From Amycolatopsis endophytica (GTDB taxonomy: Bacteria > Actinomycetota > Actinomycetes > Mycobacteriales > Pseudonocardiaceae), in contig NZ_JACCFK010000002.1 of the NCBI RefSeq assembly GCF_013410405.1, positions 372,001 through 436,000 of the forward strand: DNA of 64,000 nt, in the 5' to 3' direction. The position numbers and the translations under genes are program-made. The notes below the pieces were generated by a model, which saw nothing but the letters and a program-made list of their open reading frames with translations, was not told the origin of the DNA and did no database searches. This document shows, one piece after another, positions 5,110 to 58,887 of this stretch (the first letter of the stretch is position 1; each line of letters opens with the position of its first letter).

Positions 5110-5151
5110 AACGCCGTGCGGGCCACCCGGCCGGATGGCCCGCACGGCGTT
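5110..5151 (-). terminator. Hairpin terminator after the zinc-free ribosomal operon
   Basis: A perfect 16-bp inverted repeat (AACGCCGTGCGGGCCA at 5110-5125 and its complement at 5136-5151) around a 10-base loop. Its outer base is the last base of the rpsR stop codon. There is no T-tract, as is usual for actinobacterial intrinsic terminators. Confidence 0.8.
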
Positions 5152-5399
5152 CAACGCGCCGACGAGGGATACGGCAGCAGTGCCATCTCCCGGGCGTTCT
5201 TGATGGCTGTGGCCACCTGTTTCTGCTGCGTGGGCGTCAGACCGGTGACCCGGCGGGCGCGGATCTTGCCCCGGTCGGAGATGAACTTGCGCAGCAGGTC
5301 CACGTCCTTGTAGTCCACGACGGACACCTTCTCGGCGGCGAGCAGGTTGCGGCGCCGCCGCCCCGGCCGGTCCTTGGCGTACTTGGGCACGGCGCTCAC
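5151..5399 (-). CDS. rpsR: 30S ribosomal protein S18, zinc-independent paralog
   Basis: An 82-residue S18; the core [20 protein letters not shown] and the C-terminal [14 protein letters not shown] are canonical. The N-terminus lacks the cysteines of the zinc-binding form, so this is a C-minus paralog. Known biology (mycobacteria, Streptomyces): such paralogs replace the zinc-containing proteins under zinc starvation and free zinc from ribosomes. The GTG start (5399-5397) overlaps the rpsN stop by four bases (GTGA), so translation is probably coupled. It is the last gene of the minus-strand operon and is followed directly by a strong hairpin. Confidence 0.96.
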
Positions 5400-5701
5400 C
5401 AGCTCGACTTCGACACGCCGGGCAGCTCCCCGCGGTGGGCCATCTCGCGCAGCCGCACCCGGGACAGCCCGAACTTGCGGAAGTAGCCGCGCGGGCGCCC
5501 GTCGGCGGTGTCGCGGTTGCGCAGCCGGGTCGGGCTCGCGTCGCGCGGCAGCTTCTGCAGTGCCGACACCGCCGCCGCCCGCTCCTCCGGTGTGGAGCGC
5601 ACGGACGAGACGACGGCTTTCAGCTCGGCCCGGCGCTCGGCGTAGCGGGCCACGATCACGCGCCGCTGCTCGTCGCGGGCGATCTTCGACTTCTTCGCCA
5701 T
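5396..5701 (-). CDS. rpsN: 30S ribosomal protein S14, zinc-independent long form
   Basis: A 101-residue S14 of the long, cysteine-free type. The C-terminal signature [20 protein letters not shown] is present, and the CxxC...CxxC zinc ribbon of short S14 is absent. Its ATG shares one base with the rpmG stop (TGATG). It belongs to the operon rpmB-rpmG-rpsN-rpsR, the same gene set as the mycobacterial Zur-regulated C-minus operon. Confidence 0.96.
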
Positions 5702-5865
5702 CAGCGCTCCTCCCGGAACTCGACGTGGCGGCGCACCACCGGATCGAACTTGCGCAGCACCATCCGGTCCGGGTCGTTGCGCCGGTTCTTCCTGGTCACG
5801 TACGTGTACCCGGTGCCAGCGGTCGAGCGGAGCTTGATGATCGGGCGGACGTCGTTGCGGGCCAC
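5701..5865 (-). CDS. rpmG: 50S ribosomal protein L33, zinc-independent paralog
   Basis: A 54-residue L33 ([19 protein letters not shown] at the N-terminus, then [14 protein letters not shown]). The positions that carry two CxxC pairs in zinc-binding L33 contain no cysteine here. It starts with GTG at 5865, which shares one base with the rpmB stop (TAGTG). A short gene easily missed because its frame stays open upstream. Confidence 0.95.
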
Positions 5866-6101
5866 TACAGCTTCACCCCCTTCGCGCGCAGCTCGGCCAC
5901 GACCGCCTCGATGCCGCGCTTGTCGATCGTCTTGATGCCCTTCGCCGACACCCGCAACGTGACCCAGCGCCCTTCGGACGGGATCCAGTAGCGCCGCCGC
6001 TGGACGTTCGGGTCCCAGCGCCGCGAGGTGCGCCGGTGCGAATGGGACACCTGCTTGCCGAAGCCCGGCTTGCGGCCGGTGACCTGGCAGACCGCCGACA
6101 T
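5865..6101 (-). CDS. rpmB: 50S ribosomal protein L28, zinc-independent paralog
   Basis: A 78-residue L28, first gene of the minus-strand operon. The N-terminus [20 protein letters not shown] has a single cysteine and lacks the CxxC sets of the zinc form, as in mycobacterial RpmB C-minus proteins. A good ribosome binding site (AGGGAGG) precedes the ATG at 6101. The start lies 11 bases from the left arm of the operator at 6112-6140, so repressor binding would block this promoter. Confidence 0.96.
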
Positions 6102-6111
6102 CCACCCTCCC

Positions 6112-6140
6112 TAGTTGGTAGCGATTTTCATTACCAACTA
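6112..6140. promoter_or_regulatory. Divergent palindromic operator, probable Zur box
   Basis: Perfect 9-bp arms TAGTTGGTA (6112-6120) and TACCAACTA (6132-6140) flank an 11-base core GCGATTTTCAT. The core with its flanks (GATTTTCATTA) resembles one half of the actinobacterial Zur operator. It lies in the 50-base gap between rpmB and mrf, the only intergenic space in this eight-gene island. Binding by Zur is inferred from the gene content and this partial match. Confidence 0.8.
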
Positions 6141-6151
6141 CTCTACAACGC

Positions 6152-7378
6152 GTGGATCCCGAAACGACCGGCACCACCCGGGTGCCCCTCACCCTGATCA
6201 GCGGCCTCGTCCCGGCGGCGACCGCGGAACTGGCCGACCAGGCCCGCGTGGCCCGGCCCGGCACCGCGGTCGTCCACCACGACCTGCGCGAGATCGACGG
6301 CGGGATCGTCCGGCGACGGCTCCAGATGGGTGCGCACGACGAGACGACCGTCCTCGAACTCGCCCACGGCTGCGTGTCCTGCACGCTGCGGGAGGACCTG
6401 CTCCCCCTGCTGCGGCGCCTGGCGGGCACGCCCGGCGTGCGGCACATCGTGGTGCGGCTGGACGAGGCGATGGAGCCCGAACCGGTCTGCTGGGCCATCG
6501 CCCACGTCCTGGTCGGCGACCGGCCGGTGAGCGACTTCGTGACGATCGAGGGCGTGCACACCGTGCTCGACCGCGGCAGCTGGCTGGCCGACGCGACCGG
6601 CGACGACACCCTCGACGAGCGGAACCTGCGGGCCAGCCAGGACGACGAGCGCACGGTCGCGCAGGTCGCGTTGTCGCAGGCCGAGTTCGCCGATGTGCTC
6701 GTGCTGACCGGTACGGCCGACGCCTGGACCGACGCGAAGACCGCCGCCGTGCTCGACCGGGTCGCGCCGTCCGCGCTGCGCACCTCGCACCTCGCCGAGG
6801 TGCCCACCGGTGCGCGCCGCGGCGCGGTGACCGACATGCACGGCGCGCTCGTGCACGGCGAGCCCCCGCTGCACGCCGACTGCGGTGTCGCGACCCTGTT
6901 GTTCACCGCGCAGCGCCCGTTCCACCCGGAGCGGCTGCACGACGCGCTCGACGTCCTGCTCGACGGTGTGGTGCGCACGCGGGGCCGGGTGTGGGTCGCG
7001 ACGCAGCCGGACATGGCGCTGTGGCTGGAGTCGGCGGGCGGCGGTCTGGGCATCGGGCACGCCGGGCCGTGGCTGGACGCCGCGGACGGTCCCGCGTGGA
7101 CGGACGTCACGCCCGAACGGCGGACCCTGGCCTCGTTGCGCTGGCACCCGGTGTTCGGCGACCGGGCACAGGAGGTCTTCGTCGTCACCGATCAGGCCAC
7201 ACCGGACGAGATCGAGGAAGCGCTGTCCGCGGCGCTGCTCACCGACGCCGAACTGGCCGCCGGGCAGCAGGAGTGGCGCACCTACGACGACCCGTTCGGC
7301 GACTGGCACGAAGAACCGTGCGAAGACACCGAAGAGACGCAGGACGTGAACGTCACGTCCGGAACGGAGAAGCAGTGA
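6152..7378 (+). CDS. mrf: Mrf-like COG0523/CobW-family protein with a lost P-loop
   Basis: A 408-residue member of the CobW/COG0523 family. The segment that should be GxxGxGKTT reads SGLVPAATA (residues 17-25), so GTP binding by the classical Walker A is unlikely. The metal motif CxCC is reduced to C74-V-S-C77-T-L within [16 protein letters not shown], and the later region EPEPVCWAI and the C-terminal [15 protein letters not shown] match the mycobacterial Rv0106/Mrf group. Known: Mrf recruits the hibernation factor Mpy to zinc-free ribosomes in M. smegmatis. It begins the plus-strand operon. The GTG start has no ribosome binding site and is 12 bases after the operator, so the mRNA may be leaderless. 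Its stop overlaps the rpmE start by four bases. Confidence 0.88.
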
Positions 7379-7623
7379 AACCGGGTATTCACCCCGACTA
7401 CCACCCGGTGGTGTTCCAGGACAGCGCCACCGGGGACGCGTTCCTGACGCGGTCGACCATCACCTCGGAGAAGACGATCGAGTGGAGCGACGGGAACACC
7501 TACCCGCTCGTGCTGGTCGACGTCAGCTCGTGGTCGCACCCGTTCTGGACCGGCAACCGGCGGATCATGGACACGGCGGGCCAGGTGGAGAAGTTCCACC
7601 GCCGCTACGGAAGGCGGAAGTGA
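7375..7623 (+). CDS. rpmE2: 50S ribosomal protein L31 type B, zinc-independent
   Basis: An 82-residue type-B L31 ([20 protein letters not shown] at the start; [21 protein letters not shown] near the end). The four cysteines of type-A L31 are missing. It starts with GTG at 7375 inside the mrf stop (GTGA), and its own TGA shares one base with the rpmF ATG, so all four genes of the plus operon are probably translated in a coupled way. Confidence 0.95.
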
Positions 7624-7781
7624 TGGCGGTTCCCAAGCGCAAGATGTCGCGCAGCAACACCCGCCACCGCCGCGCACAGTGGAAGGCCGTCAAGCCGGAC
7701 CTGGTGCCGGTGGTGATCGACGGCAAGGAGCAGCTCGTGCCGCGCAATCTGCTCGGCCACTTCCACCGGCTGGCGCGGTGA
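7623..7781 (+). CDS. rpmF: 50S ribosomal protein L32, zinc-independent paralog
   Basis: A 52-residue L32 ([20 protein letters not shown]). The C-terminal zinc ribbon (normally CxxCG...C) is replaced by a cysteine-free stretch, which makes this the sixth C-minus ribosomal paralog in the island. The ATG at 7623 overlaps the rpmE stop by one base, and its TGA overlaps the GTG of cobW by four-base GTGA. Confidence 0.94.
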
Positions 7782-8842
7782 GGGTCACCGTCCTGTCCGG
7801 GTTCCTCGGTGCGGGCAAGACGACGCTGCTCAACCACGTCCTGGGCAACACCGAGGGGATGCGGGTCGCGGTGATCGTCAACGACATGAGCGAGGTCAAC
7901 ATCGACGCCGCGCTCGTCCGCACCGAGGAACGCCTGGTGGAGATGACGAACGGCTGCATCTGCTGCACGCTGCGCGACGATCTCCTGGAGGAGGTCGGTC
8001 GGCTCGCCGACGAGGGCCGGTTCGACCACGTGCTGATCGAGTCCAGCGGCATCTCCGAGCCGATGCCGGTCGCCGCGACCTTCACGTTCCTGCCCCGTGC
8101 GCGCCTGGACACGATGGTCACGGTGGTGGACGCGGCGAACTTCACCCGCGAGCTGGACAGCGGCGACGACCTGGTCGCGCGGGCGCTCGACCAGTACGAG
8201 GGCGACGAGCGCACGGTCAGTGACCTGCTGATCGACCAGGTCGAGTTCGCCGACGTGCTGCTGCTGAACAAGACCGACCTCGTGGGCGAGGCCGGCCTGG
8301 CCCGGCTGGAGGCGGTGCTGCGGCGCCTGAACCCGGCGGCGGAGGTGGTCCGGACCAGCTTCGGGCGCGTGCCGGTGTCCGCGGTGGTCGGCACCGGCCG
8401 GTACGACCCGCAGCGCGCGAGCGAGGCGCCGGGATGGGTGGCCGAGCTCAACGGCGACCACGTGCCGGAAACCGATGAGTACGGCATCTCCAGCGTCGTG
8501 TTCCGCGCGGAACGGCCCTTCGACGCGGACCGGCTGTGGGAGTTCGTGGCGCACGACCTGGACTCCGGCCGGTTCGGGAAGGTGTTGCGCTCCAAGGGTT
8601 TCTTCGCGCTCGCCTCTCGTCCGGGTGTGGTGGGACTGTGGTCGCAGGCCGGCGCGGTGGCGCGGTTCGAGCCGCAGGGCGCCGGGCCCGCGCGGCAGGA
8701 ACTGGTGTTCATCGGCACCGAGCTGGACCACGGGGCGCTCACCGCGGCGCTGGAGGACTGTCTCAGCGTGGCGGAGGCGGCTCCGGCGGCGGATCCGTTC
8801 CCGGCGTGGGACCTTCACGCTCACGCGGGGCACGCGCACTGA
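7778..8842 (+). CDS. CobW/COG0523 GTPase, probable zinc chaperone
   Basis: A 354-residue GTPase with intact motifs: P-loop GFLGAGKTT (residues 8-16), CICC (60-63), NKTD (about residue 160), and a C-terminal CobW domain ending in a histidine-rich tail [11 protein letters not shown]0523 proteins of this kind deliver zinc to client proteins when zinc is scarce. The start is the GTG at 7778 that overlaps the rpmF stop, not upstream in-frame codons that would run into rpmF. Pairing of this intact GTPase with the P-loop-less Mrf homologue in one operon is notable. A 21-bp repeat pair separates it from the convergent permease gene. Confidence 0.94.
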
Positions 8843-9923: not shown

Positions 9924-11421
9924 CCGACCTCCCTGTGCTCGCGAGCGTCAGCAAGCTCTCCTCGGTCGCCTCGGCGGCAGGCACGTCCCCGACCACCGCT
10001 CCCCGCCGCAGGACGACGATCCGGTCGACCAGGCCGAGCAGTTCCGGCAGGTACGACGACACCACGACGATCGCGAACCCACGGGAGGCCAGGTCACCGA
10101 TCAGCGTGTACAGCTCGGCCTTCGCGCCCACGTCGACGCCCTTGGTCGGCTCGTCGAACAGCAGCACCCGCACGTCGGTGACCAGCCACCGCGCCAGCAG
10201 CACCTTCTGCTGGTTGCCACCGGACAATGTGGACACCGGCTGGTCGTAGGAACCGGCCCGCAACCGCAGCCCGTCGAGCACCTCGTCGACCCGTTCGGAC
10301 TCGCGGCGCCGCGACAGCAGTCCGCGGGAGGCGATCGCGGGCAGGCTCGCCACCGACACGTTCTCCCGGACCGACAGCTCGGGCAGGAGCCCCAGTTCCT
10401 TGCGGTCCTCCGACAGCAGGCCGATGCCGGACCGCACCGCCTCGCGCGGGCGGCCCGAGGGCACCCGTTTGCCGTCCACCTCGACCGTGCCCGACACCGG
10501 CGGATCGGCACCGAAGATGGCGCGCAGCAGCTCGCTGCGGCCCGCGCCGAGCAGCCCCGCGACACCGACGATCTCGCCCGCGCGCACGTCCAGGTCCACG
10601 GTGTGCGCGCTGCCCCGTGGCCGCAGCCCGCGCACCCGCAGCAACGGCGCGGTCCGCTCGGACCGTCCCGCGGCCGCGGGATACAGCTCCTCGACGTCCC
10701 GGCCGACCATGGCCGCGATCAGGCTGTCCTCGGTGAACTCGCGCAGCGCGCCCGCCCGCGTCACCGTGCCGTCGCGCAGCACCGTGACGCGGTCGCCGAT
10801 CTCGAACATCTCCTCCAGCCGGTGGCTGACGTAGAGCACGGCGACGCCCTCCTCGCGCAGCGCGGTGATGCGGCGCAGCAGGGCCTTCGCCTCCGCTCCC
10901 GACAGCGCGGTCGTCGGCTCGTCGAAGATCACCACGCGCGGATCGTCGCCGAGCACGCGCGCGATCTCGACCAGCTGACGGGTGGCGGCGGACAGTTCCG
11001 CCACCGGCGTCAGCGGGTTCAGGTCGAGGCCGACCCGCTCCAGCTTGCGGGCCGCCTCGGTCCGCATCCGGCGCCGGTCGACCACTCCCGCGCGGGCGGG
11101 CAGGCCACCGATGAGCAGGTTCTCCGCGACGGAGAGGTCCGGCAGCAGGCTCAGTTCCTGGTACACCGCGCCGATCCCGGCAGCACGCGCGGCGGCCGGG
11201 CCGACCGCCATGGGCATCGGCCGTCCGTCCACCCGGTACTCCCCCGCGTCCCGGCGGAGCGCGCCGGTGAGCACCCGGATCAGCGTCGACTTCCCGGCGC
11301 CGTTCTCCCCGGCCAGGCAGTGCACCTCACCGGCGTGCAGGTCGAGCGAGACGTCGTGCAGCGCCACCGTGCCACCGAAGGTCTTGCGCAGCCCGGACAG
11401 ACGGATCCGTGGCGTGGTCAC
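9904..11421 (-). CDS. Sugar-type ABC transporter ATPase with two nucleotide-binding domains, RbsA-like
   Basis: A 505-residue tandem ATPase. The first domain has GENGAGKST near residue 38 and a normal signature region; the second, near residue 290, has the degenerate GLLGAGRSE typical of RbsA-family second domains, then LSGGNQQKVLLARWL near 398. It energises the RbsC-like permease. A GTG start overlaps the stop of the binding-protein gene by four bases (GTGA). Confidence 0.94.
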   Translation of the reverse strand: MTTPRIRLSGLRKTFGGTVALHDVSLDLHAGEVHCLAGENGAGKSTLIRVLTGALRRDAGEYRVDGRPMPMAVGPAAARAAGIGAVYQELSLLPDLSVAENLLIGGLPARAGVVDRRRMRTEAARKLERVGLDLNPLTPVAELSAATRQLVEIARVLGDDPRVVIFDEPTTALSGAEAKALLRRITALREEGVAVLYVSHRLEEMFEIGDRVTVLRDGTVTRAGALREFTEDSLIAAMVGRDVEELYPAAAGRSERTAPLLRVRGLRPRGSAHTVDLDVRAGEIVGVAGLLGAGRSELLRAIFGADPPVSGTVEVDGKRVPSGRPREAVRSGIGLLSEDRKELGLLPELSVRENVSVASLPAIASRGLLSRRRESERVDEVLDGLRLRAGSYDQPVSTLSGGNQQKVLLARWLVTDVRVLLFDEPTKGVDVGAKAELYTLIGDLASRGFAIVVVSSYLPELLGLVDRIVVLRRGAVVGDVPAAEATEESLLTLASTGRSDGTGRS

Positions 11422-12455
11422 CGGCTCGCCTGGGCAGTCGGCGGGTTGAGCAGATCGCGGACCTCCGGCGAGTTCATGTTGCCCTGGTCGGCGATCACCG
11501 CGCCCGGGTCGAGCGAGCGCGGCAGCTTCGCGCCGGTCGACGCCGCGATCGCCTCGACCACGCCCTGGTAGCCGAAAAAGTACGGGTTCTGCACCACGAG
11601 CGCGTCGATCGACCCGTCGGCCAGTGCCGCGTTCTCCTGCGGGTCGGAGTCGAACGCCACCACCGGCAGCGTGGCCGCGCGGCCGGTGTCCTTGACCGCG
11701 CGGGCCGCGCCGTTGCCGGACATGTTGTTCGCCGCGAACACGCCCGCCAGGTCGGGCACCGCGCCGAGCGCGTCGTTGACCTGGTTGGCCGCGGTGCTGA
11801 TGTCGTTGTTGTTGAACCGTTCTTCCCAGACGGTGATCTCCGGGCAGTTCCCGGCCAGTCCCTGCCGGAAGCCGCGCGCCCTGTCACCCAGCGCCTGCAC
11901 ACCGGCGACGGCGTTCTCCAGCAGCACCTGCCCGCTGGTGCGGCCCTGGGCGCGGATCAGCTCGCACAGCCGCTGCCCGGCCTGCTCACCGGCACGCAGG
12001 TTGTCGGTGCCGATGAACGCCTCGGTCTCGGTGGTGACGGTGCCGTCGACGGTGATCACCTTGATACCGGCCTGCCGCGCCCGCTCGATCACCTTGTCCA
12101 GGGCGCTCTCCGAGTTCGCCGCCAGCACGATCGCGTCCACGCCACGCGAGATCGAGTTCTCCACCAGCTGGACCTGCTCGTTGACGTCAGTCTCCGAGGT
12201 CGGCCCGAACCGGCCTACGTCGACCCCGAGGTCGGCGCCCGCCTGCTGGGCCCCGGCGAACATGCTCTGCCAGAAGGCGGAGTCGGTGGCCTTCACGATG
12301 ACATCGACGCGCAGCCCGGACGCCGCGCCGGGACCCGCCTGGCCGGTCGAGCCGCCGCCCCCGCTCGCCCGCCCGGCCACGAGGCCGATCACCAGGGCGA
12401 GCACCGCGGCCGCCACGAGCAACGGTGTCGAGAACAGCACCCGGTTCCGCGCCAT
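11418..12455 (-). CDS. Periplasmic-binding-protein-like sugar ABC transporter receptor, RbsB-like
   Basis: A 345-residue extracytoplasmic solute receptor of the RbsB/LacI type. An N-terminal hydrophobic segment follows MARNRVLF and acts as signal or membrane anchor; there is no lipobox cysteine in the usual place. The two Rossmann-like lobes are recognisable by the VIVKATDSAFWQSM and NMSGNGAARAVKD stretches. The ATG at 12455 follows the ribosome binding site GGGAGGCG. It is 77 bases downstream of the sphingosine-1-phosphate-lyase-like gene on the same strand, so it could be the fourth gene of that operon or the first gene of its own. Confidence 0.92.
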   Translation of the reverse strand: MARNRVLFSTPLLVAAAVLALVIGLVAGRASGGGGSTGQAGPGAASGLRVDVIVKATDSAFWQSMFAGAQQAGADLGVDVGRFGPTSETDVNEQVQLVENSISRGVDAIVLAANSESALDKVIERARQAGIKVITVDGTVTTETEAFIGTDNLRAGEQAGQRLCELIRAQGRTSGQVLLENAVAGVQALGDRARGFRQGLAGNCPEITVWEERFNNNDISTAANQVNDALGAVPDLAGVFAANNMSGNGAARAVKDTGRAATLPVVAFDSDPQENAALADGSIDALVVQNPYFFGYQGVVEAIAASTGAKLPRSLDPGAVIADQGNMNSPEVRDLLNPPTAQASR

Positions 12456-12532
12456 CGCCCACGCCTCCCAGTGCCTCGTCGCGCAGTGGCCCGCGGCGGA
12501 AGGTAGCACAGCGGAGCTGGGCAAGTAAACGA

Positions 12533-13954
12533 TTACTCGGAGCGGTAGAGCATTCCGAGGAACTCACGTAGCAGCCGTTCCCGCAACGCCGGGCTCGCGG
12601 CGCCCAGGAGCGCGTTGATCTCGGCCATGCGGTCCGGCAGCCGGGCACCCCCACCCATCCCGGCGGCGGTGAGCAGGCCCGCGAACTGTTCAGCGGTCAG
12701 GGTCTCCGGGTCGAGCGCGGCGACGAACGCGGCCACGTCCTCGTCCACCGTGACCGGACCGGCCGCGCGCGCGGCAGCGACCGAGGCCGCCAGGTCCGAG
12801 GCGAGCTCCGCCTCACTCCCCCGGTTCGCGGCCGTCACCGTGAGGTGCAGGTTCACCGGCGAGGACGCGTGGGCGAACTGCGGCTGCACGTACCAGCCGC
12901 GCACGCGCATCTCGTCGGCGACGGTGAACAGGTCGAAGCCCTCGTCCGTGGCGGTGAGGGCGAGCAGGGTCGAGTCCGGCTCCGCGAGCAGCCGCAGACC
13001 GTCGATCGCCTCGATGCCGTGCGCGAGTCCGGTGACGGCGGCGAGTGTCCGCCGTGCCAGTTCGAGATAGCCGTCGTCGCCGAGGTGCCGTACCACCGCC
13101 CAGGCTGCGGCGAGCGGACCACCGGAGCGGGTGGACTGGATCGTGCTGTTCAGCATCGTGTAGCCGGGCCAGTCGGCGCTGGCGAAATAGTGACCGCGCC
13201 GCAGGTCCGCGTTCGCGTGCAGCAGCACCGACACGCCTTTCGCGCAATAGGCGTATTTGTGCAGGTCGACCGAGATGCTGGTCACGCCCTCGACGCCGAA
13301 CCCGAAGTCGGGCACGGGACGGCCCAGACGGCGGAAGTAGGGCAGGATCCAGCCGCCGATGCACGCGTCGACGTGCATCCGGACCCCGCGCGCGGCGGCC
13401 GCGGCGGCGATCTCCGCGATGGGGTCGAGCACGCCGTGTGCGTAGGAGGGAGCGCCGGCGACCACGAGGACGGTGGTGTCGTCGATCGCGGCGGCCATCG
13501 CGCCGGGGTCGGCGCGGAAGGTTCCCGGGTCGGCCGGCACGACGACCGGGCGGACCCGGAACAGGTGCGCGGCCTTGTGGAACGCGGCGTGCGCGGTCGA
13601 GGGCAGGACCATGCTCGGCGCGGTCACGTCCGGCCGTCCCTCGCGCGCGGCGAGCACGGCGAGCAGGCACGATTCGGTGCCACCGGAAGTCACCGCGCCG
13701 ACCGTCTCCTCGGTGCCACCGAGGAGCCCCGCGGCCGTCGCGACGAGGTCGTTTTCCAGGCGCCGCAGGCTCGGGAACGCGGTCGGGTCGAGGCCGTTGG
13801 CGGAGGAGGCGAGCGCATGGGCCTGCGCCGCCAGGTCGTCCACACCGGACAGCCCGCTGTCGTAGACGTAGGCCAGGGTGCGGCCACCGTGCGTCGGCAG
13901 GTCACCGGCGCGCAGCTCGCGCAGCTGCTCCAGGACCTCGCGCGCGGGCCTCAA
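12533..13954 (-). CDS. PLP-dependent decarboxylase family lyase, sphingosine-1-phosphate-lyase-like
   Basis: A 473-residue fold-type-I PLP enzyme. TSGGTES (residues 89-95) and HAAFHKAAH (122-130) bind phosphate and stack the cofactor, HVDA (194-197) carries the aspartate that pairs with the pyridine nitrogen, and SVDLHK (228-233) supplies the Schiff-base lysine K233. The N-terminal pattern YVYDSGLSGVDDL and NGLDPTAFPSLRRLENDL resembles sphingosine-1-phosphate lyases more than amino-acid decarboxylases. The start is probably TTG at 13954, overlapping the transporter stop as TTGA; no ATG is in a suitable place. Alternative: an amino-acid decarboxylase of unknown specificity. Context with a ceramidase favours the lyase reading. 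Confidence 0.85.
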   Translation of the reverse strand: MRPAREVLEQLRELRAGDLPTHGGRTLAYVYDSGLSGVDDLAAQAHALASSANGLDPTAFPSLRRLENDLVATAAGLLGGTEETVGAVTSGGTESCLLAVLAAREGRPDVTAPSMVLPSTAHAAFHKAAHLFRVRPVVVPADPGTFRADPGAMAAAIDDTTVLVVAGAPSYAHGVLDPIAEIAAAAAARGVRMHVDACIGGWILPYFRRLGRPVPDFGFGVEGVTSISVDLHKYAYCAKGVSVLLHANADLRRGHYFASADWPGYTMLNSTIQSTRSGGPLAAAWAVVRHLGDDGYLELARRTLAAVTGLAHGIEAIDGLRLLAEPDSTLLALTATDEGFDLFTVADEMRVRGWYVQPQFAHASSPVNLHLTVTAANRGSEAELASDLAASVAAARAAGPVTVDEDVAAFVAALDPETLTAEQFAGLLTAAGMGGGARLPDRMAEINALLGAASPALRERLLREFLGMLYRSE

Positions 13955-15252
13955 CGGACTTCCAGCACCGAACGGCGCAGCAGCGGCAGGCCCGCCAGCA
14001 CGAGAATGCCGGGCAGCAGCGAGAAGCCGAGCAGGATCGCGGTCACCGCGCTGTCCGGCTGCGCCGCGTTGGCATCCACACTGGACACATAGCCGCCCGC
14101 GGAGAGCACGAGCCCGAACAGGCCCGGCCCCAGAGCCAGTCCCAGTGTCTCCGACGCCGTCCACACCCCGGCCGTGATGCCGGCGCGGGTGGCGCCGGTG
14201 CGCTCCTCCTCGGCGCTGATCAGATCGGGCAGGATCGCCAGCGGGAACACCTGGATACCGGCGTAGCCGACCCCGGCCAGCGCCACGAACACGAACGACA
14301 CCGCGGTCGGCAGCACCAACGCCGCGCACAGGCCGGCGCTGCCCGCACCGAAGGCGAGACAGGCGAACCGGAAACCCCACAGCTTGCCCCAGCGGGCGCC
14401 GATGCGCGGCCACAGCGGCATCGTCAGCAGCGCGGGCAGCACGAACCCGACGAACAGGAACGTCTGCAGGTCCGCGTCGCCGAACACGTGTCGCGACGCG
14501 TAGTTCACGCCAGCCAGGAGGGTGGCCAGGCCGAGTGACTGGACGAAGTAGACGCCCAGCAGCCAGCGGAACGGGCGCCACTGCCGCATCGTCGCCCACA
14601 GCTCGCGCCATCCCGGCGTCGGCGGCCGCAGGTTCCCGACGGGCGCGCCGCGCGTGCCCAGGTACACCGCGATCGTGCCGAGGATCATGATCACGCCCAT
14701 GGCGATGCCCATGACGCGGTAGCCGGTGACGCCACCGACCTGGTTGGTGATCTCGGGCGCGCCGCCACCGGCGACGAGGATCGCGATCGCGAGCAGGCCG
14801 ATGCGCCAGCTGGTGAGGCGGGTGCGCTCGTCGTAGCTGTCGGTCAGCTCCGCGGGCAGCGCGTTGTAGGGCACCTGGAAGAACGCGAACGCGGTGGCGC
14901 AGAGGAAGAACGCGAGCACCACATACCCCGCGTCCAGGGGTGTGCTGCCGAACCCGGGATGGGCGAAGATCGCCGCGAACAGCACCGCCACCCCGAGCCC
15001 GCCGAACAGCAGGAACGGTCGGCGGCTGCCGCGCCTGGCCAGGCTCGCGTCCGACAGCCGCCCGGCGACCGGGTTGAACACGACGTCCCATGCCTTGGGC
15101 ACGAGCACGATCGCACCCGCGACCGCGCCCGGCACCGCCATCGTGTCGGTGAGGTAGGGCAGCAGCAACAGGCCGGGCACCGTGCCGAACGCGCCGGTGA
15201 CGAACGACCCGGCGGAGTAGCCGAGCCTGGTCTTGGCCGGTAGGGCGACCAT
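13951..15252 (-). CDS. MFS transporter, GPH/MFS_2 family
   Basis: A 433-residue transporter with about 12 hydrophobic segments. The first helix region AKTRLGYSAGSFVTGAFG and the KAWDVVFNPVAGRLSD loop mark the glycoside-pentoside-hexuronide:cation symporter group (MFS_2). Eukaryotic relatives in this family include MFSD2A and MFSD2B, the latter a sphingosine-1-phosphate exporter; this is suggestive but not proof of substrate. The ATG at 15252 has GGAGG just upstream. The stop overlaps the start of the lyase-like gene, so both are co-translated. Confidence 0.9.
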   Translation of the reverse strand: MVALPAKTRLGYSAGSFVTGAFGTVPGLLLLPYLTDTMAVPGAVAGAIVLVPKAWDVVFNPVAGRLSDASLARRGSRRPFLLFGGLGVAVLFAAIFAHPGFGSTPLDAGYVVLAFFLCATAFAFFQVPYNALPAELTDSYDERTRLTSWRIGLLAIAILVAGGGAPEITNQVGGVTGYRVMGIAMGVIMILGTIAVYLGTRGAPVGNLRPPTPGWRELWATMRQWRPFRWLLGVYFVQSLGLATLLAGVNYASRHVFGDADLQTFLFVGFVLPALLTMPLWPRIGARWGKLWGFRFACLAFGAGSAGLCAALVLPTAVSFVFVALAGVGYAGIQVFPLAILPDLISAEEERTGATRAGITAGVWTASETLGLALGPGLFGLVLSAGGYVSSVDANAAQPDSAVTAILLGFSLLPGILVLAGLPLLRRSVLEVR

Positions 15253-15330
15253 GGTCCTCCGATCGACACCCGATGATCGCCCGCATCGTTGCACCGCTGC
15301 CGCCCCCGCGAGCCGCCGGGGCGCGAATCG

Positions 15331-17337
15331 TTACGAGACGACGAACGCGCGGGAGGTGCCGGTGAACGCGGTGGTGCCGGTCAGCGACTTGGCGTCGCCG
15401 GTGTGCACGATGCGGTACTTGCCGATCGGGGTGCCTGCCGGGATGTCCCAGGTGATCGCCGCCTTCGATTCGGCCAGGAACGTGCGGGTCCAGCGGTACT
15501 TCGTGGCCCAGTCGCCGTCGTCGGCGTGGCGCACCCACCGTTCGCCGTCCAGGCGCTGGACCTCCAGGAACGTGCCGTTCCGGTGCAGGTCGTTCTTCGG
15601 GTGGCCGGTCACGAACTCGACCAGCACCTGCTCGCCGCGCCGGTAACTGCCACGGGCCTCGGTGAGCACGTCGCCGAACCGCTTGAGCAGTGGCGGGGAA
15701 TCCACCACCACACCGGGCTGGAAGGTGAGCTGGTCGTCGGACAGGTCGCGGGGCACCGGGCCGTGCGGAACGCTCGCGCCGGTGCGCATCGCGGCCGCCA
15801 GCCGGGCGAACTCCTGCTGGTAGGCCGGGAGCGTGTACCGGCCGAAGAGGGTGGAGGCGCCCTCGTACTGCTGCGAGTCGTATTCCTCCGGGGTCGTCAC
15901 GTACTGGCTGTAGGCGTTGGCGTAGCCCTGCATGATCACGTTCTCCAGCGGCGCACCCAGCTCGGCCGCGACCGCGCGGCGGATCCGCAGCCCGGCGACG
16001 ATCGTGTACTCCGCCGGCCCGCCCACCAGGTACAGCTGGCCCAGCCGCAGGATCTGCAGCGGCAGCACATCCGGCGCCCACGGGTACGGCTTCATCGCCC
16101 CGAACGGCACCGCCACCACCTTCGGCGCCTGCGCGTCGGCCAGTGCCCGCGGGATGGGCGCGTCCATCCCGCCGAGCGCGTCGAGGAACGGGTTGCGAAC
16201 CCCTTCGGGCAGGGGCAGACCGGGGCCGTCCTCGGTGCTGCCCGCGAGCATCGACACACCGATCGCCGCGGTGGCCGTGGTGTGCTGTTTCCCGTCCGGG
16301 GTGAAGCGGCCGTCGACGGTCACCTTCGACATGTCCACGTAGCAGAACCGGAAGTCCAGCGGCCCCTCCACCGGGGTGGCCGCGTTGTCGTAGGCGGTTC
16401 TGGCGGCGGTGAACTGGCGCTCGCCGATGATGCGGGTGTTCTCGAACTCGTCCTCGGTGGGTCCCGAGCCAGGTTTCAGGTTCAGGTTCGGGGACATGTC
16501 GCCGGAGTTGGTCTGCGGGAAGCACGCCACGAACGCCGGTTCGCCGTCCAGGTAACGGGTGCCCCGGCCGTGCTCCCAGGCGTAGGCCGCGTAGCCCTTG
16601 TTGTCGCCGCTGATCAGCTTGTTACCGTTGGTCATGGACGTGCCGTGGGTGGCGAACCAGGCGATCGCGCCGACGTCCCGCCCGCCCTGGGTGAACCGCA
16701 GCACGGTGACCGCGGGATCGATCGACAGCGGAAAATGGTCCTTGTCCGCCTGCGGATTCAGTTCGAACGCCGTGCAGGACCGGTTGACACTCGCGTCGGT
16801 CAGCTCACCACGGCCGAGCGTGATCGTGCCCGGCGCGAGGTTGTCGTGGGCCTGCTCGATCGCCTCCGCGATCCCCGCCACCTGCGCGTCGTAAGTCTGC
16901 TGCTGAAATCCGAGGATCGACAGGTTGTAGGCCGCGTACCAGGAGGATCCACCACAGCCGGCGTGCGTGTGGGTAGCGTTGAGCAGCACGTTCCGCTCGG
17001 TGTAGAGGTCGCCGTATTTCTCCGCGAGCCGGGCCAGCACCCCTTGGTGCACGGCTTGGAAGAGCGCCCCGAGGTCCGCGTTGACATACACGATCCGCGC
17101 GGTGCTCGTGGCGACGATGTAGGCCCTGGCCCGGGTCCGCTGGTGAATGCCCGCTGTCTGCTGTTGCGGCATCGAATAGCCCATCATCCCGCACTCGGCG
17201 GCAGGCCCTGTCACGTCAGAGAGTCCGACGCCGACCTGGAAGCCCTCCTGAGCAGCGGCTGTGGTCGAGCCGAGCAAGGTCGCCGCGAGCGGCGTCGCGG
17301 CCGCCCCGGCCAGAAGGCTCCTGCGGCTCACGAGCAT
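15331..17337 (-). CDS. Secreted neutral/alkaline ceramidase
   Basis: A 668-residue member of the neutral ceramidase family, which hydrolyses ceramide to sphingosine and a fatty acid outside the cell. A twin-arginine signal is visible at the N-terminus (SRRSLLAG, then an alanine-rich stretch ending near TTAAAQ, residue 30). Zinc-ligand and active-site motifs are in place: THTHAG (122-127), HGTSM (231-235) and NSGDMSPN (277-284), whose serine S282 matches the nucleophile of the Pseudomonas enzyme. I chose the ATG at 17337 with GGAGG seven bases upstream; longer readings enter 21-bp repeats. It is the first gene of a run of same-strand genes with the transporter and lyase-like enzyme downstream. 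Confidence 0.95.
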   Translation of the reverse strand: MLVSRRSLLAGAAATPLAATLLGSTTAAAQEGFQVGVGLSDVTGPAAECGMMGYSMPQQQTAGIHQRTRARAYIVATSTARIVYVNADLGALFQAVHQGVLARLAEKYGDLYTERNVLLNATHTHAGCGGSSWYAAYNLSILGFQQQTYDAQVAGIAEAIEQAHDNLAPGTITLGRGELTDASVNRSCTAFELNPQADKDHFPLSIDPAVTVLRFTQGGRDVGAIAWFATHGTSMTNGNKLISGDNKGYAAYAWEHGRGTRYLDGEPAFVACFPQTNSGDMSPNLNLKPGSGPTEDEFENTRIIGERQFTAARTAYDNAATPVEGPLDFRFCYVDMSKVTVDGRFTPDGKQHTTATAAIGVSMLAGSTEDGPGLPLPEGVRNPFLDALGGMDAPIPRALADAQAPKVVAVPFGAMKPYPWAPDVLPLQILRLGQLYLVGGPAEYTIVAGLRIRRAVAAELGAPLENVIMQGYANAYSQYVTTPEEYDSQQYEGASTLFGRYTLPAYQQEFARLAAAMRTGASVPHGPVPRDLSDDQLTFQPGVVVDSPPLLKRFGDVLTEARGSYRRGEQVLVEFVTGHPKNDLHRNGTFLEVQRLDGERWVRHADDGDWATKYRWTRTFLAESKAAITWDIPAGTPIGKYRIVHTGDAKSLTGTTAFTGTSRAFVVS

Positions 17338-17517
17338 CGTTGCCTCCGTCAGACGTGAAGTGTTTTCAGGTTTGACGGAGCTTAGGCGAGTGGACGCAGC
17401 GGCGCCAACCCTCGGACGGGTGGTTCGGAATTCCGTAACCGCTACGCGGCGCGCTACGCGAGTACCCAGGGCGCCGAGCTCGCAAGCTCGCAGCCGATCG
17501 CCCCTCCCGGCCCGGAG

Positions 17518-17686
17518 GGCCAACACAGTGCCCGAAACGGCAAACACGCCGCCCGGAGCGGCAAACACAGCGCCCGGAGCGGCAAACACGGTGCGGCGCG
17601 CGGCGTGTTTGCCGCTCCCGCTGGCGTGTTGGCCCTTCCGGGCAGCGTGTTTGCTCTTCCGGGCAGCGTGTTTGCTCTTCCGGGAC
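17518..17686. repeat. Head-to-head array of 21-bp repeats (4 + 4 units)
   Basis: Left units start at 17518, 17539, 17560 and 17581 and read GGCAAACAC(A/G/C)... in 21-bp steps. Right units start at 17603, 17624, 17645 and 17666 and read GCGTGTTTGC(C/T)..., the reverse complement of the left ones. The whole is a symmetric structure able to fold into a long imperfect cruciform. Unit sequence matches the array at 3340-3444. Confidence 0.92.
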
Positions 17687-17774
17687 ACCAGCCACCCACC
17701 AAACCGGAACCCGGCAGCGCGACCCGGTCACCAGGACGCCCAGTCCTCCCCCCGCACCCCGATCCGAAGCCCAG

Positions 17775-17841
17775 TTCTGCGGCCGATCAGGCGGGGGCAA
17801 GGCAGTCTTTCCCGCTTGGCCCCGCCTGCTCGGCCGCAGAA
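17775..17841. repeat. Long inverted repeat (27-bp arms, 13-base loop)
   Basis: Arms at 17775-17801 and 17815-17841 begin TTCTGCGGCCGA and differ at only two positions; the loop is 17802-17814. It is far longer than a normal terminator stem. It lies about 100 bases downstream of the LLM oxidoreductase stop (17940, minus strand), so it could end that transcript, or be a small non-coding mobile repeat. Confidence 0.85.
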
Positions 17842-17939
17842 ACAGGGAAAAATCGGGGCGGCCACAATCGGGGCGTAGCGAAGCGAAGCCGGCGCTTTCG
17901 GCCGCGCGCAGCGCGAAACCCGCGTAGCGGCCGCGAAAC

Positions 17940-18965
17940 TCACGCCAAAGCGTCCGCGATCCGCCGCAAACCTTCAGCATCCCCGCGCAACAACAACGTC
18001 GTCACCACCGTCTGATCCCACGCCGCCAGTTCCGCCCGGATCTTCTCCGGCGGCCCGATCAGCGACGTGTCCTCCACCAGCGACGTAGGAATAGCCGCAA
18101 CCGCCTCTTCCTTACGACCCGCGAGATAAAGCTCTTGAACCTTCTCCGCCACATCCGCATATCCCAAGCGGGCGAACACGTCCTTGTGGAAATTCACCTG
18201 CTTGGCTCCCATGCCCCCGATATACAGAGCCAGCGACGGCTTGATGAAACCCGCCGCCGTCTCGACATCGTCGTGCACGATGACCGGCACCGACGCCGCC
18301 ACTTCGAACGTCTCCTGCGTCTGCCGGGCGCCAGGGCGGGCGAAGCCTTCCGCGAGTGCCGCACGATAGAAATCATCGCTCTTCGGGGAGAAGAACAACG
18401 GCAGCCAGCCATCACAGATTTCCGCCGCCAGCGCGACGTTCTTCGGCCCCTCGGCGGCGAGGTGGATCGGGATCTCCGGGCGCAGCGGGTGGACCGTGGA
18501 CTTCAGCGGCTTCCCCAGACCGGTCCCGCCCCGCAACGGCAACTGGTACTGGTCACCGTCGAAGGTGACCGGCTCGCCCCGCGCCACCACGCGGCGCACG
18601 ATCTCCACGTACTCGCGCGTCCGCGCCAGCGGCCGAGGGTAGGGCTGCCCGTACCAGCCCTCCACGACCTGCGGCCCCGAAGCGCCCAGTCCCAGGATGA
18701 ACCGGCCACCCGACAGATGATCCAGCGTCATCGCGGCCATCGCCGTCGCGGTCGGGGTGCGAGCCGACATCTGGATGATGTTCGTCCCCAGTTTGACCCG
18801 CGAGGTCGCCGCGCCCCACCAGGCCAGCGGCGTCAGCGCGTCCGAGCCGTACCCTTCGGCCGTCCACACCGAGTCGAACCCGAGCTCCTCCGCCGTCCGG
18901 ATCGCCTCCAGCGCACCCTCCGGCGGGCCGGCGGACCAGTAACCGATGTGATAGCCGAGCTTCAC
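17940..18965 (-). CDS. LLM-class F420-dependent oxidoreductase
   Basis: A 341-residue luciferase-like (TIM-barrel) oxidoreductase. LGTNIIQMSARTPTATAMAA (near residue 58) and LSGGRFILGLGASGPQVVEG (near 83) are typical of F420-dependent members found in mycobacteria and relatives. It probably reduces or oxidises a small substrate using F420; the substrate is unknown. The GTG start overlaps the stop of the DUF2236 gene (GTGA), so the two form one operon, likely controlled by the divergent TetR gene. Confidence 0.92.
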   Translation of the reverse strand: MKLGYHIGYWSAGPPEGALEAIRTAEELGFDSVWTAEGYGSDALTPLAWWGAATSRVKLGTNIIQMSARTPTATAMAAMTLDHLSGGRFILGLGASGPQVVEGWYGQPYPRPLARTREYVEIVRRVVARGEPVTFDGDQYQLPLRGGTGLGKPLKSTVHPLRPEIPIHLAAEGPKNVALAAEICDGWLPLFFSPKSDDFYRAALAEGFARPGARQTQETFEVAASVPVIVHDDVETAAGFIKPSLALYIGGMGAKQVNFHKDVFARLGYADVAEKVQELYLAGRKEEAVAAIPTSLVEDTSLIGPPEKIRAELAAWDQTVVTTLLLRGDAEGLRRIADALA

Positions 18966-19885
18966 GACACCTCCCGGGGAACATAATGAGTCGAACTGTC
19001 CCGTTCGGACAGTGGCGGCAGGTTGCGCGCCGGGGTTTCCACGAGCGGCACGTCCGCGGGCACGTCACCGCGGACCCGCTGCCATCCGGCACGGGCACGC
19101 GGGTGGAACCGCCGGTCGTGCGGCACGAACCGGAACGCGAACCCGATCGCCCGCCCGGTCAGCCGGTGCAGCGCCTCGTCGCGCCGCGACCAGCGGTAGC
19201 CCAGCCGCTCCCGCACCGCCGGGTGGTACATGCCGACCGTGAACCACACGAACTGCTTCGCGATCAGGACCCGCAACGGCCGCCACAGCGGATCCGGCAG
19301 CCACGCCGCGAACGGCGGCTTGTCCAGGCCCCGCAGGTCGAGCACGTCCCGCGTGGCCTTGTTGTCCTCCAGGACCTCGGTGCACATGTGCTCCCAGTAT
19401 TCACCGAACTCCTCCCACGACCCGGGCACCGGCCGCATGCTCATGCCGTAGAGCGCGTACCACTGGACGTGTTCGTCGAACAGGCGCCGCTTCTGCTCCT
19501 CGCTCAGCCCGCCCATCATCCGCTCCGCGGCGATCACGGTGAGCATGAAGAACGTCGAGTGCGCCCAGTAGAACGTGCCCGGGTTCAGGGCGTGGTAGCG
19601 GCGGCCGCGGGAGTCCACGCCCTGGATGGTGTCGTGGTAGCCGCGCACCGTCCGCGCCGTCTCCGCCGCGCGCGGGCCGTCGTAGACGACGCCACCGATC
19701 GGGTAGAGGGACCGGAACAGGCGCTGCCACCGTTCGGCGAAGAACCGCGAGTGCTCCTCGACGCCCGCGCCGAGCTCGGGGTGCATGTTCTGCATCGAGC
19801 CCGCCCACAGCGCCATGAGCAGCGTCCGCCAGTCGCCGAAGTACTTCCACGTCAGCGAATCGGGGCCGAGAGGCTGCGGTGCCAT
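18962..19885 (-). CDS. DUF2236 / MpaB-like oxygenase family protein
   Basis: A 307-residue DUF2236 (ER-bound oxygenase MpaB/latex-clearing-protein-like) protein. The family hallmarks are present: GGVVYDGPRAAETARTVRGYH near residue 62, ALNPGTFYWAHSTFF near 100 with the candidate heme histidine, and a later arginine-rich helix. No signal peptide is seen. Family members are heme proteins, a few of which cleave isoprenoids; function here is unproven. It diverges from a TetR gene, with a 28-bp palindrome between the starts. Confidence 0.88.
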   Translation of the reverse strand: MAPQPLGPDSLTWKYFGDWRTLLMALWAGSMQNMHPELGAGVEEHSRFFAERWQRLFRSLYPIGGVVYDGPRAAETARTVRGYHDTIQGVDSRGRRYHALNPGTFYWAHSTFFMLTVIAAERMMGGLSEEQKRRLFDEHVQWYALYGMSMRPVPGSWEEFGEYWEHMCTEVLEDNKATRDVLDLRGLDKPPFAAWLPDPLWRPLRVLIAKQFVWFTVGMYHPAVRERLGYRWSRRDEALHRLTGRAIGFAFRFVPHDRRFHPRARAGWQRVRGDVPADVPLVETPARNLPPLSERDSSTHYVPREVS

Positions 19886-19897
19886 GATCCGAACGCT

Positions 19898-19925
19898 ACA
19901 ATTGACAACACTCGTAGTCAATTGT
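19898..19925. promoter_or_regulatory. TetR-type palindromic operator
   Basis: Arms ACAATTGAC (19898-19906) and GTCAATTGT (19917-19925) are exact complements around 10 bases. The site fills the 48-base gap between the divergent DUF2236 and TetR starts and includes a TTGACA that could serve as a -35 box, so the regulator probably represses both directions. Confidence 0.85.
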
Positions 19926-19933
19926 GAGGGCGG

Positions 19934-20524
19934 ATGACCGAGAAAACCTGGGCGGGCACCACGCTCAGCGACCGCCGCGCCGCCCGGCGGGCCCAGCTGC
20001 TCGACGCGGGACTGGACCTGCTGGGCACGACGGGCAGCGCGGCAGTGACGGTGCGCGCGGTGTGCCGGCACGCGAAGCTCACCGAGCGCTACTTCTACGA
20101 GAACTTCGCCGACCGTGAGGAACTCGTGGTCGCGGTCTACGAGCAGGTCGCCACGCAAGCCCACCAGGCGCTCGTCGACGCGGTGCCGGACACCGGCAGG
20201 GACCCGGCGCAGCGCGCCGAGGCGGCGGTGTCCGCGTTCGTCGAGCTGATACTGGACGATCCCCGCAAGGGCCGGGTCCTGCTGCTGGCGCCGGTCACCG
20301 AACCGGCCCTGTCCGCCCGCGGCGTGGCGCTGCTGCCCGCGTTCGCCGGGCTCGTCCGCGAACAGCTGCCCGAGCGCATGGACGCCCTGGAGAAGCAGCT
20401 GACCGCGATCGGCCTGGTCGGCGCGCTGACCCACCTGTTCACCGCCTCTCTGTCCGGGACACCGGAACTGCCGCGCGAGCGCCTGGTCGCGCACTGCGTG
20501 GGACTGCTCGTGCGATCGTCCTAA
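19934..20524 (+). CDS. TetR-family repressor
   Basis: A 196-residue TetR protein: N-terminal helix-turn-helix (residues about 15-62, with [19 protein letters not shown]) and a C-terminal ligand domain. It likely represses itself and the divergent DUF2236-LLM operon through the palindrome at 19898-19925. Its stop overlaps the stop of the convergent aldolase gene by three bases, leaving no room for a terminator. Confidence 0.93.
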
Positions 20525-21543
20525 GCGGACTCCCGCTCCGTGGCGAGCTGGAGCGCGATGTCGATGATCATGTCCTCCTGACCGCCGACGTAGCGGTTTT
20601 CCCCCACCCGGTACAGGATTTCGTGCGCCGGCACCTGGTAGCGTTCCGCGGCGCGCTCGGCGTGCAGCAGGAAGCTGGAGTACACCCCGGCGAAACCCTG
20701 CACGATCGACGACCGGTCCATCACCGGCAGCCGCGTGATGAACGGCTTCACGACGTTCTCCGCCGCGTCCATCAGCACATCCTTGTCCACCCCGGTGCGC
20801 ACACCGAGCCGCTCGAACACCGCGGCCAGCACCTCGGTCGGCGAGTTCCCCGCACCGGCGCCGAGCGCGACGAGGGAACCGTCGATCTGCCGGGCCCCGG
20901 CCCGGTGGGCGAGCACCGAGTTCGCGACGCCGAAGCTGAGGTTCTGGTGCCCGTGGTAGCCCACCTGCGCGTCCTCGCCGAACTCGGCGACCAGCGCGGC
21001 GACCCGGTCGGCGGCCTCCTCCAGGATCAGCGCCCCCGCGGAGTCCACCACGTACACGCACTGGCACCCGGCGTCGACCATGATCCGGCCCTGCTCGGCC
21101 AGCTTCTCCGGGGTGGCCATATGGGACAGCATCAGGAACCCGACGGTCTCCAGCCCGAGCCTGCGTGCCTCGGTGAAATGCTGGACCGACACGTCCGCCT
21201 CGGTGCAGTGCGTCGCGATCCGCACCGCGCCCGCACCCAGGTCCGCGGCCGCTTCGAGGTCGGTGACCGTGCCCAGGCCGGGCAGCAGCAGCACCGCGAT
21301 CTTGGCCTGCTTCGCCTCCTCGACCGCCACCGCGATCAGCTCGCGCTCGTCCACCAGCGAGAACCCGTAGTTGAACGTCGATCCGCCCAGCCCGTCGCCG
21401 TGGGTCACCTCGATCAGCGAGATGCCCGCCTGATCCAGCGCGCGCACCGTGTCGCGGACGTTGTCCACGGTGAACTGGTGCGCCATGGCGTGACTGCCGT
21501 CGCGCAGGCTCGTGTCGACGAGCCGCACCTCCCGCTCGCTCAC
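20521..21543 (-). CDS. 4-hydroxy-2-oxovalerate aldolase (DmpG/HsaF/MhpE family)
   Basis: A 340-residue class II aldolase that splits 4-hydroxy-2-oxovalerate (or a longer homologue) to pyruvate and an aldehyde. [17 protein letters not shown] (residues 8-24) provides the metal-binding Asp and catalytic Arg, VDSAG (near 170) and [14 protein letters not shown] (near 198) complete the metal site. It forms a channelling complex with the acylating acetaldehyde dehydrogenase whose stop codon overlaps its GTG start. The 2-hydroxypenta-2,4-dienoate hydratase that normally feeds it is not in this window. Confidence 0.95.
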
Positions 21544-58125: not shown

Positions 58126-58887
58126 CTACCTCTTCCCCAGGGTTCGGTGGAACAACTCGAGCGTGCGGTCCCACGAAACGGACGCCGCGTGCTGGTGATA
58201 GGCAGGCAGCTGCGGGAACATGAAGCCGTGATCGGCGCCGTCGAAGATCTCGACAGTCGCTTTCACCGGGGGCCTGCCCAGCTCGTCCCGGAGCGGCTTG
58301 TTCAGCTCGAGCGGGGAGAGCCTGTCGGCCGCGCCGAGTCCGACGAACAGCTCGGCGGGGATCTTCCCGACGCTCCGATGGGGCGAGTCCGGATCATCCG
58401 TGACGCAGTTCGACGGGTGCAGCGCCGAGCCTGCCGCGAATCCTGCGGGGTCGGAGGCGAGCAACCGCAGGGTGAAGCGCGCACCCATGCAGAACCCCAT
58501 GGCGGCTTTGGCGTTCATGTCGGCGGCGGGGTCCTTCGCGGTGACCTCCAGCATCGCGGCCGTGTCGGCAAGCACCATGTCGTCGCCGAGCGAGGTGACC
58601 GCCGCCATCAGCCGATCGAATTCCGGTGATCCCGGCCCTTGGCCGATCCCGGCCAGGTCGAAGGAAATCTGATGACCGAGCCGGTGGTAGAGATCCGGCA
58701 GAACGGCGTAATATCCGGCACCCGCCAGTTTGCGGCTGACGTCGTGGATGTCCTCGCGCAGCCCCGGCCCGTCGTGGTAAACGATGACCACCGGAAACGG
58801 GCCACTACCGTCGGGATGGCGAACCGTGACCGCCATCGGCCCGTCATCGGTCAGTACGACTTCTTCTTTCTCCACCAATTCTCTCAC
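58126..58887 (-). CDS. Dienelactone hydrolase family protein
   Basis: A 253-residue DLH-type hydrolase. The nucleophile motif GFCMGARF (near residue 130) has cysteine at the catalytic position as in dienelactone hydrolase, and DGADHGFMFP (near 215) supplies Asp/His. The start is a GTG at 58887 that overlaps the dioxygenase stop (GTGA). It may hydrolyse a lactone or thioester intermediate of the ring-cleavage route. Confidence 0.9.
   Translation of the reverse strand: MRELVEKEEVVLTDDGPMAVTVRHPDGSGPFPVVIVYHDGPGLREDIHDVSRKLAGAGYYAVLPDLYHRLGHQISFDLAGIGQGPGSPEFDRLMAAVTSLGDDMVLADTAAMLEVTAKDPAADMNAKAAMGFCMGARFTLRLLASDPAGFAAGSALHPSNCVTDDPDSPHRSVGKIPAELFVGLGAADRLSPLELNKPLRDELGRPPVKATVEIFDGADHGFMFPQLPAYHQHAASVSWDRTLELFHRTLGKR

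Follow-up and report, generated by a model that had tools for sequence, protein, structure and literature searches.

What does an enzyme resembling sphingosine-1-phosphate lyase (SPL) do in an operon-like locus that also holds a ceramidase and a transporter and has no sphingosine kinase beside it? The locus lies in a stretch of 64,000 nucleotides from Amycolatopsis endophytica (assembly GCF_013410405.1, contig NZ_JACCFK010000002.1, positions 372,001 to 436,000; hereafter the window), whose minus strand encodes, in order of transcription and all intact, a secreted neutral ceramidase, a GPH-family transporter and a pyridoxal phosphate (PLP) enzyme. An initial reading of the letters alone (the sequence-only reading) had proposed that the three genes scavenge sphingolipids by cleaving ceramide outside the cell, importing the long-chain base and degrading it, and had counted the missing kinase as a gap in this model. 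The adjacency, coordinates and motifs that it described (Ser282 of the ceramidase, HVDA/HK of the PLP enzyme) were confirmed on the sequence, as was the overlap of the last two genes, where the transporter stop and the enzyme start share the four bases TTGA.

Comparison with related loci changes the emphasis. The conserved unit is the transporter together with the PLP enzyme, which is far more widely spread than the ceramidase, and two of the five residues listed as binding the substrate phosphate in SPLs are replaced throughout the class to which the enzyme belongs. The best reading, put forward tentatively, is importer-coupled cleavage: the pair would take up and break an amino compound that carries no phosphate, and in some Amycolatopsis it would be supplied with sphingosine.

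An SPL-like enzyme with a changed phosphate pocket

The PLP enzyme matches SPL in fold and in its closest sequence kin, which bears out the resemblance first seen in its motifs. An HVDAC motif begins at residue 194, the PLP lysine is Lys233, and the equivalents of the SPL cofactor-site residues His201, Asp274, Cys276 and Lys311 (His122, Asp196, Cys198 and Lys233) are kept in all 127 loci of the D class defined below. The closest named homologues are from Amycolatopsis (A. granulosa, A. thermoflava), and among the closest homologues the database annotations vary, with 'pyridoxal phosphate-dependent decarboxylase family protein' at one end and 'sphinganine-1-phosphate aldolase' at the other. A placement with amino-acid decarboxylases, which the sequence-only reading had set against itself, was not observed: the enzyme scores 271 bits with SPL, 83 with the tyrosine/aspartate decarboxylase MfnA and 56 with glutamate decarboxylase (GAD), and it does not pass the curated decarboxylase models TIGR03812 (MfnA; 180 bits, cut-off 299) and TIGR01788 (GAD; 103 bits, cut-off 380). 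The MfnA model scores 229 bits on an SPL with a Gln pocket.

Table 3 of PMC6148460 lists Y105, H129, A103, N126 and K317 as substrate-phosphate residues of SPL, and the five enzymes in that table carry His or Gln at the H129 place and Ala or Thr at the A103 place. The window enzyme keeps three of the five (Tyr31 for Y105, Asn53 for N126, Lys239 for K317) and replaces H129 with Asp56 and A103 with Tyr29. The amino acid that occupies the H129 position defined the pocket class of 160 loci (157 distinct), each a stretch of at most about 21 kb, some ended by contig ends, so that a gene called absent lies outside those stretches. This gave 127 loci with Asp (D), 23 with Asn (N), five with His (H), four with Gln (Q) and one with Ser (S). 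Asp56 is found in 127 of 127 D loci by definition, and the result lies in the co-varying residues and the neighbours: Thr58 and Tyr265 occur in all 127 and Tyr29, at the A103 position, in 126, while all 33 non-D loci have Gly265. Residue 29 is Leu or Met in the N class, Thr or Ser in the Q class (one unread), Ala or Cys in the H class and Tyr in the S locus. Two Embleya loci have Tyr as the pocket residue, and no transporter was found in them.

In a tree of the family, the SPLs StSPL and HsSPL (human) fall in a nine-row group that is split from the D-class rows by a branch with support 99/99, the rooting being unsure. A GAD-like outgroup was tried for the rooting and dropped because its branch was too long.

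The transporter and the enzyme form the conserved unit

The MFS_2 domain of the transporter covers residues 11-427, that is its whole length, placing it in the GPH/MFS_2 family; with TIGR00792 it scores 175 bits (cut-off 231). A transporter gene of this family precedes the enzyme gene, in the same orientation, in 123 of the 127 D loci (118 with a gap below 300 nt) and in none of the 33 non-D loci; counting distinct D loci only, the figure is 120 of 124. A Nonomuraea locus (L224), in which a TetR gene, the transporter and the enzyme each overlap by four bases according to predicted gene calls, brings the total to 124 of 128. A motif scan yielded at least 588 hits; the 80 named loci are the nearest of these, so that they are skewed to close kin. 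The transporter is present in all 80 and within 300 nt in 76. Their genera include Amycolatopsis, Prauserella, Saccharothrix, Actinophytocola, Micromonospora, Salinispora, Actinoplanes, Nocardioides, Kribbella, Phycicoccus, Actinotalea and Streptomyces, among others. Clustering the neighbours in 120 loci with a simple gene finder returned the enzyme 119 times, the transporter 113 times and the next cluster 25 times, showing no third conserved gene. Enzyme and transporter very probably act as one functional unit. A literature search found nothing on this pair, or on FGGY kinases beside SPLs, among the matches listed, most subscription papers being outside the search. The sequence-only reading, made without searches, likewise knew of no described actinobacterial locus with the three genes.

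A gene for a PhaC-like alpha/beta hydrolase (e.g. L134:7357-8643) recurs in 19 of the 80 named loci and in many of these immediately precedes the transporter; GDSL lipases take its place in L100 and L105.

The transporter might also work outwards, the module removing or secreting a product such as an amine, under TetR control in some lineages. TetR-type genes lie upstream in L057, L165, L166 and the Nonomuraea locus (Pfam-checked for L057 only), and yet L167, a D-class locus lacking the GPH gene, has an uptake-type system with a binding protein beside the enzyme. We regard export as very unlikely.

Kinases accompany the His and Gln classes

FGGY-family (xylulokinase-like) kinases are encoded near the SPL in four of four Q loci and four of five H loci (L072-L075, L182, L185, L188 and L194), against none of 128 D loci and none of 23 N loci. 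The three that were scanned match PF00370/PF02782, their nearest model being XylB, below cut-off. The kinases beside these eight SPLs may represent a novel type that acts on the SPL substrate. EutB, an ethanolamine ammonia-lyase, is encoded near two of the four Q loci (L072, L075). Since a kinase is present where the pocket is expected to hold a phosphate, and a transporter without a kinase where Asp takes its place, the D-class substrate is likely to be unphosphorylated; this, the chief argument for such a substrate, is a correlation, and the H and Q sample is small (nine loci). In agreement with the sequence-only reading, no sphingosine kinase adjoins the locus. With FGGY kinases beside eight of nine His/Gln-pocket SPLs and none of 128 D-class enzymes, this absence may be expected and need not be a gap in the model.

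A true SPL pathway, in which ceramide is cut outside, sphingosine is imported and phosphorylated by an unlinked kinase, and sphingosine 1-phosphate is then cleaved, would draw on the SPL kinship of the enzyme and on its three retained phosphate residues. The window's genome has three DAGK_cat matches over cut-off, none by the locus, any of which might serve as sphingosine kinase (an NCBIfam scan of a 115-residue piece of one gave no hit). The Burkholderia enzyme in Table 3 of PMC6148460 has Gln for His129, suggesting that the site tolerates change. Against these points stand the class-wide replacements of His129 by Asp and of Ala103 by Tyr, the restriction of the FGGY kinase to His/Gln-class SPLs and the branch that sets StSPL and human SPL apart. 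We consider this pathway improbable, and sphingosine 1-phosphate as the substrate is doubtful for the D class, with two of five substrate-phosphate residues replaced throughout.

Ceramidase and sphingomyelinase homologue in Amycolatopsis

The ceramidase begins with a twin-arginine signal (MLVSRRSLLAG), has both the Ceramidase_alk domain (PF04734, 598 bits) and the C-terminal domain (PF17048, 178 bits) and carries the catalytic Ser282 in NSGDMSPN. It scores 703 bits with NF041649, under the equivalog cut-off of 1200, and matches PDB entry 2zws at 1.6e-194. By tblastn, a ceramidase lies near the pair in five of the 80 named loci, all from Amycolatopsis (L080, L081, L082, L092, L097), in three of 40 further loci (L037, L041, L042) and in L219-L221, giving twelve contigs with the window included. 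In 11 of the 12 it sits between a gene for an F420-type oxidoreductase and the transporter. L081 is the exception, its contig stopping short of the F420 gene.

Across 249 genomes of the order, PF04734 matches occur in 73, of which 68 are over cut-off and 47 strong. Strong matches are found in 11 of 80 clade genomes and 36 of 169 others, and in none of the 61 clade genomes outside the window's family; all matches over cut-off are found in 21 of 80 and 47 of 169, ten of the 61 included. No association between clade and ceramidase was seen at any cut-off tried. Outside the Amycolatopsis types, 17 ceramidase loci were retrieved, and in every one the pair is missing from the stretch. The linkage that the sequence-only reading expected in relatives is thus absent outside Amycolatopsis, and a conserved trio was rejected there. 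In the ceramidase tree the twelve locus copies lie in one part of 16 rows, together with L204, L208, L215 and L216 from elsewhere. This is compatible with an early acquisition followed by losses, though no proof of a single event.

Between the ceramidase and the transporter, seven of the twelve contigs (L041, L042, L081, L092, L219-L221) encode a protein of 319 residues with a signal-like start. Scanning of two of these gave scores of 118 and 129 bits with the sphingomyelin phosphodiesterase model TIGR03395 (cut-off 248), and for one protein all seven PDB matches are sphingomyelinases or beta-hemolysin. The gene order ceramidase, sphingomyelinase-like protein, transporter and SPL-like enzyme corresponds to what would be expected of a pathway that degrades sphingomyelin, and the sphingomyelinase-like gene is evidence independent of the choice of locus because the sequence-only reading was unaware of it. 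In the window's own genome TIGR03395 had no match, a result that does not prove absence, as the control matched nowhere either. Scavenging of sphingolipids thus retains the operon-like layout, the Amycolatopsis loci with ceramidase and the sphingomyelinase C homologue in seven of twelve, and loses the conservation of the trio.

Proposed function

Under importer-coupled cleavage, the GPH-family transporter would bring in an unphosphorylated 2-amino compound, which the PLP enzyme, with its SPL fold, would bind as an aldimine on Lys233. Cleavage would most likely be an SPL-type retro-aldol reaction between C2 and C3 rather than a decarboxylation. Asp56, presumably contributed by the partner subunit by analogy with H129 of StSPL, and Tyr29 would read the head group where SPL reads the phosphate, so that the enzyme could do without a kinase. 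The Amycolatopsis lineage would have acquired a secreted ceramidase gene ahead of the pair, joined in part of the lineage by the sphingomyelinase C homologue, and where the ceramidase is present the module is most simply read as uptake and cleavage of free sphingosine released outside the cell. Sphingosine may be the substrate in Amycolatopsis, though we say so with reserve; as substrate of the whole D class it is improbable. The more specific proposal, that the D class is a kinase-independent sphingoid-base lyase acting on free sphingosine delivered by a GPH importer, with some Amycolatopsis having a complete pathway from sphingomyelin to aldehyde (sphingomyelinase C, ceramidase, importer, lyase) that bypasses sphingosine 1-phosphate, is rather unlikely.

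Several observations weigh against importer-coupled cleavage fed with sphingosine. Besides the lacking association of ceramidase with the clade, EutB, counted as a sign of ethanolamine release, is not enriched in 83 D-class genomes (80 taken at 53% identity or more, with G074, G081 and G136 added, of which the pocket was read for G074 only; one sub-cut-off match, G172, was left out). Four D-class loci lack the GPH gene. In one of them, L167, the enzyme gene is flanked by genes for a Peripla_BP_6 binding protein and a LivH-type permease (HAAT-type). In L170 and L171, from one actinobacterial genus, a divergent kynureninase (TIGR01814 in L170, 231 of 246 bits) is encoded beside the enzyme, and a downstream gene specifies a membrane protein that matches no Pfam family; 23 of 89 of its homologues bear the JGI name ESS-family glutamate:Na+ symporter. 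HAAT-type genes also lie near the pair in L054, L056 and L057 (L054 and L116 being one record). On alphaproteobacterial plasmids (8 of 11 records examined), three of four SPL-like enzymes with a Gly pocket have an amino-acid ABC permease nearby (L228, L229 and L230, from Sinorhizobium, Rhizobium and Sulfitobacter), and the fourth, L227, has matches to a binding protein and an ATPase. L226, whose pocket is His-like in an unsure alignment, is likewise near an amino-acid ABC transporter. The neighbours in L168, also D-class without the GPH gene, give no clue. An M20-type hydrolase gene lies near the SPL-like enzyme in L226 and L229.

The transporters of these variant loci argue for substrates resembling amino acids, at any rate in side branches. 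The whole D class could accordingly be an amino-acid enzyme, a beta-hydroxy amino acid aldolase or an aromatic or acidic amino acid decarboxylase, working with an amino-acid or amine transporter, with the ceramidase and sphingomyelinase-like genes of Amycolatopsis as unrelated neighbours. The kynureninase next to L170/L171 and the plasmid loci add to this case. Glutamate decarboxylase and MfnA also have Asp at the side-chain pocket position. The sequence, the structure and Lys239, however, match SPL, and a sphingomyelinase homologue beside the ceramidase ahead of the pair in seven loci is not what coincidence would predict. We regard an amino-acid enzyme as a serious possibility short of likely, and retain importer-coupled cleavage as the best reading. 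If the latter is true, an SPL-fold class with an altered phosphate pocket, a gained transporter and no adjoining kinase would show how an enzyme family changes its substrate, and would account for many actinomycete proteins now annotated as 'PLP decarboxylase' or 'sphinganine-1-phosphate aldolase'.

Neighbouring genes in the window

Table 1. The three genes of the locus, the gap between two of them, and the bordering genes (positions in the window).
Feature	Position	Strand	Basis or remark
Sugar-type ABC substrate-binding protein	11418..12455	minus	Peripla_BP_4; 77 nt downstream of PLP enzyme
D-class SPL-like PLP enzyme, 473 aa, TTG start	12533..13954	minus	TTG start overlaps transporter stop
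GPH-family MFS_2 transporter, 433 aa, ATG start	13951..15252	minus	PF13347, 280 bits
Ceramidase/transporter gap, 78 nt, GGAGG ahead of transporter ATG	15253..15330	minus	Sequence
Secreted neutral ceramidase, 668 aa, ATG start	15331..17337	minus	PF04734 + PF17048
F420-type luciferase-like oxidoreductase bordering ceramidase	17940..18965	minus	TIGR03559

A consensus scan, the only promoter search made, found no sigma-70-like promoter in 12300-18000. The ABC substrate-binding protein gene, also downstream of the enzyme in L039, L082 and L107, is a lineage-specific neighbour outside the conserved pair. The F420-type oxidoreductase gene directly precedes that of the transporter in several relatives lacking a ceramidase there (L036, L039, L078 and others). 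It adjoins an MpaB/rubber-oxygenase-type gene (18962-20014), and many Amycolatopsis and Prauserella loci keep both genes together ahead of the transporter and the enzyme. Upstream of the ceramidase, a 21-bp unit is repeated in two tandem arrays (17510-17684), the consensus of one array being close to the reverse complement of the other's. Farther off, 5151-8842 encodes ribosomal proteins S18, S14, L28 and L31 and two CobW-family proteins, a set which we take to resemble a zinc-starvation (Zur-type) set; 20521-21543 encodes a DmpG-type aldolase; and at 58884-60925 a LigB-type ring-opening dioxygenase gene adjoins one for a luciferase-like monooxygenase.

Comparison with known systems

The ceramidase shares both domains and the catalytic Ser region with the neutral ceramidases of Pseudomonas (2zws) and human (4wgk) and shows no notable difference, being an ordinary member of the family. 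The transporter has the MFS_2 domain in common with GPH/MFS_2 transporters, its best PDB matches being MFSD2A (56 bits) and MelB (44 bits). At its positions Asp56, Asn60 and Gln126, which we take for the MelB sodium site, it keeps the Asp and, unlike MelB, has Asn60 and Gln126 (37 of 37).

With MfnA and glutamate decarboxylase the PLP enzyme shares the PLP fold type and the Pyridoxal_deC domain, whereas the MfnA match stops at residue 393 and a GAD-like paralogue (L002) lacks the Lys at the Lys239 column. A partial parallel to the module is the sphingosine-responsive operon of Pseudomonas aeruginosa described in PMC11893366, with the predicted PLP aldolase SphD, dispensable in the growth tests given there. 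The sphingolipid pathway, as set out in PMC6148460, ends at a lyase acting on sphingosine 1-phosphate. With such lyases (StSPL, 3mad; human SGPL1, 8ayf) the window enzyme has in common the full-length fold, the PLP lysine, the Asp and Cys of the PLP site and the equivalents of Tyr105, Asn126 and Lys317. It differs from them in having Asp for His129, Tyr for Ala103 and Tyr265 for Gly, and its class, which lies outside the group of StSPL and human SPL, is linked to a transporter instead of a kinase.

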